Origin: Sneathiella sedimenti
GTDB taxonomy: Bacteria > Pseudomonadota > Alphaproteobacteria > Sneathiellales > Sneathiellaceae
Direction of reading: 5' to 3'
Length of the DNA stretch: 64,000 nt
Assembly (NCBI RefSeq): GCF_017313765.1
Contig: NZ_JAFLNC010000002.1
Location: 558,001 to 622,000, forward strand
Shown here: piece by piece, positions 59,673 through 60,818 of the stretch
How positions within the stretch are numbered: the stretch's first letter is position 1
How the letters are laid out: the number at the start of each line of letters is the position of its first letter
Translations under genes and position numbers: made by a program
Notes under the pieces: generated by a model
The model's input: only the letters and a program-made list of their open reading frames with translations
The model's database searches: none
What the model was told of the DNA's origin: nothing

Positions 59673-59757
59673 TTCCCTGTTTCCCGTTGCCTTGCGCGGG
59701 TGATTAAAATCTAATTTAGGGCGGGCTTGATCCTGTTATCGATGAAAGGTTATGACC

Positions 59758-60405
59758 ATGACACTGCTGAAATCGCTAGGTGCGGCGGCCCTGCTCGTTG
59801 CGGCCGCTTTCCCGCTCGCGGAGGCGCAGGAAGCGCATCCAATGGGCTTCTTTGTGACGAGCGTCGGACCGGGGAACGGCGGCGATCTCGGCGGACTTGA
59901 GGGCGCGGATGCCTGGTGCACGAAGCTGGCCACCGATGCCGGCGCCCCGGCGCGGGACTGGCGCGCCTATCTCAGCACGCAGGAAGAGGGTAAGCGCGGC
60001 ATTTCCGCCCGCGAGCGCATCGGCCTCGGCCCGTGGTATAACGCCAATGGGGAGCTGATCGCGAGCGATCTCGACATGCTGCATCTGAACCCCAATATCG
60101 TCAAGCGCACCGCCGTCGATGAAAGCGGCAACCCGGTAAAGGGCCGCGGCGACAGCGCGAACGAGCATGATATCCTGACCGGCTCCATGTCCGACGGCAC
60201 CGCCTATTTCCCGAGCGTGACCGACGACAAGACCTGCAGCAACTGGACCAGCTCCGGCGAGGGCAGCGCCACGGTCGGCCACCATGACCGCCATGGCGGG
60301 GGCAACACCTCCTGGAATGCGGCCCATGACAGCCGCGGCTGCAGCGCCGACGCCCTCAAGAGCACCGGCGGCAACGGTTATTTCTACTGCTTCGCGGCGG
60401 ACTGA
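59758..60405 (+). CDS. Secreted lectin-like protein
   Basis: A 215-residue protein. The ATG at 59758 sits 8 bases after GAAAGG and is preferred to the one at 59752. A signal peptide (AAFPLAEA then QEAHP) precedes a domain with GGLEGADAWCTKLATDAGAPARDWRAYLST, ARERIGLGPWYNANGELIASDLDMLH, ANEHDILTGSMSDG, CSNWTSSGEGSATVGHHDRHGG and a final GNGYFYCFAAD. This pattern fits the C-type-lectin/endostatin-like proteins found in proteobacteria. Conserved Cys residues suggest disulfides. Role unknown; it is divergent from the sensor kinase. Confidence 0.75.
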   Translation: MTLLKSLGAAALLVAAAFPLAEAQEAHPMGFFVTSVGPGNGGDLGGLEGADAWCTKLATDAGAPARDWRAYLSTQEEGKRGISARERIGLGPWYNANGELIASDLDMLHLNPNIVKRTAVDESGNPVKGRGDSANEHDILTGSMSDGTAYFPSVTDDKTCSNWTSSGEGSATVGHHDRHGGGNTSWNAAHDSRGCSADALKSTGGNGYFYCFAAD

Positions 60406-60411
60406 TCCGCC

Positions 60412-60636
60412 TCAGCCGCAGCAGTTATCCCCGGCCTGCTTCGGCGGGCAGGGGACACTCCCGTAGGAGCAGTAGACGCAGCAGTCCCCGGCCTTCGGCT
60501 TGAGCAGTGCGCCGCAGCCTTTGCAGTCATAGAACCACTGGCAGGCATCGGTCGGCATCGTCTCGACCTCCTTGTGGCCGCAGTCGGGGCAGGTCAGGAT
60601 CGAGGTGAGCTCGACAGCTGTTTCTTGCGTTTCCAT
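60412..60636 (-). CDS. GDCCVYCSYG-domain Cys-rich protein (mercury-associated)
   Basis: A 74-residue protein with nine or more Cys: LTCPDCGHKEVETMPTDACQWFYDCKGCG, then KPKAGDCCVYCSYGSVPCPPKQ and a final NCCG. This is the small zinc-ribbon-like family named for its GDCCVYCSYG motif, commonly beside mercury resistance genes. Its first 43 bases overlap the 3' end of the merF-like gene in another frame. It is probably cytoplasmic and may bind the metal handed over by MerF (inference). Confidence 0.88.
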   Translation of the reverse strand: METQETAVELTSILTCPDCGHKEVETMPTDACQWFYDCKGCGALLKPKAGDCCVYCSYGSVPCPPKQAGDNCCG

Positions 60637-60818
60637 AGGGCATAGACCGTTATTGCGATAAACAGGGCAAGGGCGGGCAGGAGCACCATATCCAGCAGTC
60701 CGAGGGCGGCGGACAGCCCCACCGAGCCGAGCAGGATCACCAGCACCGGCGTGAAGCAGCAGAGCGCCGCCGCCACCGTCCCGATTATCCCGACCTTGAG
60801 TAATGTCTCGTTTTTCAT
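60594..60818 (-). CDS. merF: MerF-like mercury transporter lacking the C-terminal Cys pair
   Basis: A 74-residue protein with two helices. The first contains VGIIGTVAAALCCFTPVLVILLGSVGLSAALG, with the family CC pair that takes up Hg(II); the second is DMVLLPALALFIAITVYALWKRKK. Known MerF has a second CC pair near the C-terminus; here the end reads KKQLSSSPRS with no Cys. The 3' end overlaps the Cys-rich gene that follows. No merR, merP, merT or merA is next to it. Confidence 0.85.
   Translation of the reverse strand: MKNETLLKVGIIGTVAAALCCFTPVLVILLGSVGLSAALGLLDMVLLPALALFIAITVYALWKRKKQLSSSPRS

Follow-up and report, generated by a model that had tools for sequence, protein, structure and literature searches.

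The window, that is, the whole stretch of 64,000 nucleotides of Sneathiella sedimenti DNA that we analysed, encodes on its reverse strand a MerF-like transporter and a small cysteine-rich protein of the GDCCVxC family (NF041374, hereafter GDCC), and the pair formed by these two overlapping genes is real and conserved. With a probability of about 0.5, judged from comparisons of sequences, the pair would be a MerA-independent unit for a soft metal, most likely Hg(II), in which GDCC would be the cytoplasmic acceptor. MerF would pass the metal ion inward through the Cys pair of its first transmembrane helix (TM1), and GDCC would accept the imported ion in the cytoplasm as a thiol (rarely selenol) chaperone or buffer. 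GDCC would thus take the place that the tail pair of MerF, along with MerA, has in classical operons. It would be a small, zinc-ribbon-like Cys protein with additional thiols (C32, C52/C53, C56, C63 and a C-terminal CC).

The merF-like gene (60594..60818, reverse strand) encodes 74 aa and scores well above the cut-offs of both MerF profiles (NF033565, 98.4 bits for a cut-off of 50; PF11431, 71 bits for a cut-off of 24.3). The Cys pair of TM1, C20-C21 in the motif LCCFTP (codons at 60756..60761, reverse strand), is invariant in both MerF alignments and is the only vicinal Cys pair of the protein. The C-terminus reads KKQLSSSPRS, so that the second pair is absent, as an earlier note on this DNA had described; the region concerned lies outside the part matched by NF033565 and PF11431. 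The same note had reported that the end of merF also encodes the start of a Cys-rich gene, and the overlap is indeed of 43 bases including the MerF stop codon (60594..60636, reverse strand). The GDCC start (METQ) sits within the MerF codons YALWKR, at the end of the second transmembrane helix (TM2), and the window sequence that spells AVELTSIL in the GDCC frame yields LSSSPRS, the tail of MerF, in the other. Because the GDCC reading frame dictates the tail of MerF in this Sneathiella type of locus, the overlap may have led to the loss of the tail pair as a side effect, and alone could explain the tail.

This arrangement recurs. Among the 34 loci in which MerF is directly coupled to GDCC, the GDCC start could be called in 33, and the genes overlap in 30 of these, by 4 to 43 bases, which is more than expected by chance; the start falls in the same YA[LI]W codons in 15 of the 30. 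GDCC is probably translationally coupled to MerF across the overlap. A sequencing frameshift near 60600, named in the earlier note as a possible cause of the missing pair, was considered and rejected: it is very unlikely, since S. chungangensis, S. litorea and others show the same arrangement, with the same frames in independent assemblies from Sneathiella and elsewhere.

These two species are also the closest named relatives of the window MerF (86% identical in S. chungangensis, 84% in S. litorea). In both, as in the window, merF is preceded by a membrane-protein gene and GDCC is followed by a histidine-kinase-like gene (gene kinds assigned by inspection), and because the flanking genes match, the pair looks chromosomal and inherited. 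A DUF1554-like protein slightly below the Pfam cut-off is encoded at 59752-60405 (forward strand) of the window, and a close relative of it adjoins GDCC in S. litorea (L109:5414-6058). We found no mer gene close to the window pair, in line with the earlier remark that merR, merP, merT and merA are missing there, and in particular no MerR gene beside it. The search for merA elsewhere in the genome, which had been proposed as a check, gave nothing over the cut-off: in this genome (with a tool-estimated completeness of 100%), where we searched for MerA, MerR and MerT, the best match to MerA (TIGR02053) reached 397.2 bits for a cut-off of 454.45, with none at E<=1e-120, the best match to MerR (TIGR02051), located elsewhere, reached 83.4 bits for a cut-off of 150.85, and MerT had no match at E<=1. 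Aligning the region ahead of merF in five loci revealed no recognisable mer operator; the window and L108 are similar near the gene and the others much less so. Another genome of the genus (G168; L067 and L007) has a merT-merP-merF-merA operon whose MerF lacks the tail CC, plus a GDCC gene elsewhere that has no mer gene in its examined flanks.

The GDCC gene (60412..60636, reverse strand) encodes 74 aa and matches NF041374 with 108.8 bits (cut-off 40). The protein had been described as having nine Cys; it has 11 (C16, C19, C32, C38, C41, C52, C53, C56, C63, C72 and C73), nine of which are the conserved ones, invariant among 33 aligned members of the family. The motif that names it (G50 D51 C52 C53; 60478..60489, reverse strand) is invariant at D51, C52 and C53, and the C-terminal vicinal pair C72-C73 (60418..60423, reverse strand) lies outside the NF041374 match, which spans residues 12-68. 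An AlphaFold2 model from the 33 sequences has a pLDDT of 84.3, and its fold neighbours are weak, short and of zinc-ribbon type (best VIA Z 3.1, best Foldseek E 0.53); a weak profile match to 1qyp was also found (E 0.0027). Two Cys knuckles (C16/C19 and C38/C41) would form a zinc ribbon, leaving C32, C52, C53, C56 and C63, usually with a C-terminal CC, outside the putative ribbon.

The earlier note suggested that GDCC had taken over the role of the lost pair of MerF, and proposed a survey of MerF forms. We surveyed a class sample of 385 genomes (MerF in 44) and a phylum sample of 398 genomes (MerF in 48; metagenome-assembled genomes, MAGs, of f188 weigh heavily in it, and several are incomplete), together with nine named loci and some further loci retrieved for MerA. 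The 103 distinct MerF-like rows tabulated gave 99 classified loci after removal of four under 45 bits; class-sample places under the cut-off (G007:C468, G064:C285, G105 and G238) were left out. MerA was scored as near when on the same strand and within 3 kb of available sequence, and L035, which has a MerA about 3.2 kb away on the other strand, was counted as lacking it. The tail pair is present in 25 of the 99 loci, so that it is not what MerF normally has in this sample, as had been assumed, and it does not define the family. When MerF is directly coupled to GDCC (n=34), neither the tail CC nor MerA is ever present. When GDCC is on the same strand within 3 kb without being adjacent (n=19), eight MerF have the tail CC and three have MerA, and when there is no nearby GDCC on the same strand (n=46), the numbers are 17 and 39. 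In five loci (L064, L065, L102, L214 and L215), MerF lies beside merA and has a long hydrophobic C-terminal extension, as if it had extra TM helices, and the mer operon of L181 has two merF-like genes, of which only the first has the tail CC.

The idea that GDCC specifically replaces the lost pair of the window MerF fits part of these data. The tail pair is found in 0/34 coupled MerF versus 25/65 others (Fisher's test, p 4e-6, kinship ignored), and the C-terminal CC of GDCC is present in 27 of the 36 proteins coupled to MerF and in 28 of the 32 coupled to MerT/MerP (together 55/68), versus 58/101 others (p 0.0016, kinship ignored). Yet 29 of the 46 MerF without nearby GDCC equally lack the pair, and are thus pairless relatives without the partner, of the kind that the earlier note had named as evidence against its suggestion; 23 of these 29 have MerA nearby. 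MerA is itself a confounder, since the pair is found in 19 of the 42 MerF with MerA within 3 kb and in 6 of the 57 without; among the loci lacking MerA the difference is 0/34 coupled versus 6/23 others (p 0.003, kinship ignored). The association cannot be separated from kinship with a tree of the MerF core (96 rows, after dropping L014, L105 and L107): the best tree has 12 changes of coupling and 12 of the CC pair, and is too weak for such a control, its supported branches giving only one independent pair. According to the part of PMC5500634 available to us, which cites earlier mutagenesis (Powlowski and Sahlman 1999), only the first CC pair is important in MerT and MerF, and the second pair of MerF may therefore be dispensable, although elsewhere the same text has the two pairs participating in transport. 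Finally, GDCC is also found behind MerT, MerP and MerTP, and the second pair of MerT is kept in five of seven annotated MerT/MerTP partners. A role of GDCC as a specific substitute is thus possible but not needed, and we regard it as distinctly unlikely for the window MerF.

GDCC is not specific to MerF and goes with Mer-type transporters in general (MerF, MerT-MerP and MerTP). It was found over the cut-off in 62 of the 385 genomes of the class sample and in 101 of the 398 of the phylum sample. Among 64 GDCC places of the class sample (of 65 over the cut-off, the exception being G007, a piece at a contig end), a Mer transporter or MerP lies within 1 kb upstream on the same strand in 24 and downstream in none, and MerA lies within 1 kb in none; these counts come from home-made profiles at >=20 bits, with L086 unverified and a few loci cut by contig ends. 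The other 40 places lack a Mer transporter in the 1 kb upstream, and some copies adjoin genes resembling those of Acr3, P-type ATPases, CcdA, rhodanese, MoaE or MsrP (mostly by inspection). The MerT-like partners in the scanned class loci are below the NCBI cut-offs, and of those of L025, L070, L082 and L088 only that of L082 passes the Pfam cut-off for MerT; two further MerT-like partners annotated as hypothetical lack the second pair. In three gammaproteobacterial MAGs (L186, L192 and L198), a MerR-family gene is followed by MerT- and MerP-like genes, then by merF, a CopZ-like gene and GDCC, in this order. The f188 operons as a set (these three, L203 and L188) have the MerR-family gene, merF, the CopZ-like gene and GDCC, with no match to MerA; four have a MerT-like gene (not L203), and L186, L192 and L198 have a MerP-like one. 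The CopZ-like (Fe-S) protein of L203 scores 127.6 bits with NF047645 (cut-off 100), and in tests of one or two of these loci the MerR-family protein (L203) and the MerP- and MerT-like proteins (both from L186) stay below the NCBI cut-offs.

MerA is rare in this setting. Among the 28 whole genomes with a coupled MerF-GDCC pair, MerA is over the cut-off in three (G095, G097 and G411), each time on another contig. GDCC is not confined to MerA-free operons, since L175, L184, L197 and L221 carry MerA as well; the operon of L184, from a gammaproteobacterial MAG, is merT-merP-merF-merA-CopZ-like-GDCC, with merA between merF and the CopZ-like gene. From this linkage, the most likely role of GDCC is that of a cytoplasmic thiol acceptor or chaperone for metal imported by Mer transporters, chiefly in units lacking MerA.

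One could instead see in GDCC a thiol or selenol redox or repair protein that mends thiols damaged by Hg or As and carries no ion. Selenocysteine (Sec) is usual at redox sites, and the position of C32 (codon 60541..60543, reverse strand, in the window) is read as UGA in two relatives, L085 and L092, whose genomes (G298 and G208) encode SelB over the cut-off. The MsrP-, rhodanese- and CcdA-like neighbours, and a gene of the thioredoxin family, would also fit such a role. However, the most recurrent linkage of GDCC is with Mer transporters, with overlapping starts, and we consider the redox or repair role unlikely. A UGA lies inside GDCC in 4 of 121 distinct stretches, and L287 likewise has UGA read at C32. 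SelB is over the cut-off in only G298 and G208 among the six genomes tested in which a UGA was flagged in the GDCC match; a Sec reading in the other four (G122, G569, G589 and G582) was not counted, and the UGA of L143 was taken as a stop codon. SelB is also found in two of eight tested genomes with the Cys form of GDCC. The window copy has no in-frame UGA, and its genome has no SelB over the cut-off. In L085 and L092, GDCC is directly behind a MoaE-like gene (by inspection). The review PMC13188914, in its available part, equates NF041374 with the hypothetical selenoprotein GOS_B, in print since 2008, for which the available part of PMC2398784 had found no functional evidence; these parts of the two papers make no mention of a linkage with mer transporters. 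In the literature searched, which takes in only a minority of subscription journals, neither the term 'GDCCVxC' nor a query combining mer genes with the absence of merA found a paper.

GDCC is also carried by mobile elements, being encoded in 348 of 72,556 plasmid records. The order merR-merT-merP-GDCC is found on plasmids of Acidovorax, Klebsiella, Pseudomonas, Methylobacter and Aeromonas, where NCBI names the MerR at the head of the locus Hg(II)-responsive, and also, under less specific names, on those of Rhodanobacter and Maritalea. Other plasmids have merT-GDCC (Methylobacterium, Bradyrhizobium) or MerF-GDCC (Agrobacterium, Sulfitobacter), and merTP-GDCC occurs in two Bacteroidota, the annotated plasmid examples being Pontibacter and Haliscomenobacter. 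In Ruegeria, GDCC follows an unnamed MerT-like gene, itself behind a MerR-family gene, and no mer gene is listed beside the plasmid copies of Caulobacter, Pseudomonas (pNK546b) and Sinorhizobium. The MerA profile had no match in the first thirteen plasmid stretches (L288-L300). In a collection of viral contigs, which is redundant, MerT- or MerP-like matches lie upstream of 22 of the 54 GDCC loci and MerA is near none of the 54; a collection of phages had no match to GDCC.

These operons bear on whether MerF-GDCC handles another thiophilic element, e.g., As(III), Cu(I) or Zn(II), in place of mercury. In Sulfuricella, GDCC overlaps the gene of an ACR3 arsenite transporter, and in L006 it follows a transporter of the SBF family. 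The MerR-family regulator of L203 scores best as Zn(2+)-responsive, while staying under every metal-specific cut-off, and 25 of the 28 genomes with the coupled pair have no MerA over the cut-off. Such an element seems rather unlikely all the same, given the GDCC operons headed by regulators named Hg(II)-responsive and the merA operon of L184 that includes GDCC.

The stretches of Klebsiella, Pseudomonas and Aeromonas have identical accessions for merR, MerT, merP and GDCC, and in those of Klebsiella and Aeromonas a Tn3-family transposase and PIN/ribbon-helix-helix genes adjoin the mer locus. GDCC is the fourth gene, after merP, of this Tn5563-type locus (L292:2891-4222, L293:2891-4222, L300:3891-5222). 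The record CP028567 is Tn5563a.2 according to the available part of PMC7157771, and there GDCC sits between merP and the transposase gene. The mer locus of Tn5563 is given as merR, merT and merP in five papers (PMC4785139, PMC4133298, PMC4447125, PMC9537497, PMC7096625), whose descriptions, in their available parts, do not include the fourth gene; two of these texts (PMC4785139, PMC4447125) call the locus partial or defective. In the available part of PMC4447125 (Dziewit et al. 2015), Tn5563a was placed in 15 hosts; two of them then had a higher Hg MIC, and in six the MIC was lower by a factor of 2 or more, a decrease that the authors ascribe to uptake without MerA. This outcome suggests that units of the Tn5563 type bring Hg(II) into the cell, and it argues against GDCC conferring resistance on its own. 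If the copy used in that study carries GDCC, as Tn5563a.2 does, GDCC gave those hosts no protection.

The same observations could mean that these are relic mer operons, drifting after the loss of merA, with GDCC as a passenger: the locus has been called defective, and hosts that received it showed a lower Hg tolerance more frequently than a higher one. In 151 plasmid records, from a redundant collection in which many copies may be interrupted, coverage of the merR-merT-merP-GDCC region reaches 80% or more, and all 15 records among the matches listed align to it in two parts, with about 290 bases in excess, which is what the insertion described in the available part of PMC4785139 would give. 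Against decay, 28 whole genomes contain the coupled pair, whose frames overlap in most cases, the nine Cys are invariant among the aligned members, and GDCC occurs in a quarter of the phylum-sample genomes; we hold decay to be very improbable.

A broader version of the acceptor reading is that mer systems have a widespread branch without MerA, Tn5563 and the window pair included, in which Hg(II) would be left unreduced and passed to GDCCVxC as the terminal acceptor in the cytoplasm, in some cases together with a CopZ-like Fe-S protein. We propose this tentatively, with less confidence than the reading of the pair itself. If true, the orphan GOS_B family of selenoproteins would gain a function. 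The family gets in any case a concrete and testable setting, as partner of mercury-type transporters lacking the reductase, and the mer locus of Tn5563, written up in the available descriptions as three genes and defective, gains a gene. If GDCC accepts metal, surveys that use merA as a marker would need to count mercury handling without MerA.

Compared with known systems, the window MerF has the same LCCFTP pair in TM1 as the MerF family (NF033565, PF11431; structures 2m67, 2h3o, 2lj2 and 1waz), and its profile finds the MerF structure 2m67 at 8.5e-27. It differs from known MerF in lacking the C-terminal CC and adjoining merA, merP or merT genes, and in that the end of its gene overlaps GDCC. 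The classical merA-bearing mer operon has the transporter family in common with the window unit, and MerR and MerP are found in relatives of the window pair, whereas the window unit has no mercuric reductase. Tn5563 and Tn5563a resemble the window pair in being GDCC units without merA (merR-merT-merP-GDCC in Tn5563), but they have MerT and MerP instead of MerF, have MerR and are mobile. The window GDCC itself is a near full-length match to the NF041374 family, with all nine conserved Cys, and represents the Cys form of a family in which Sec is optional.
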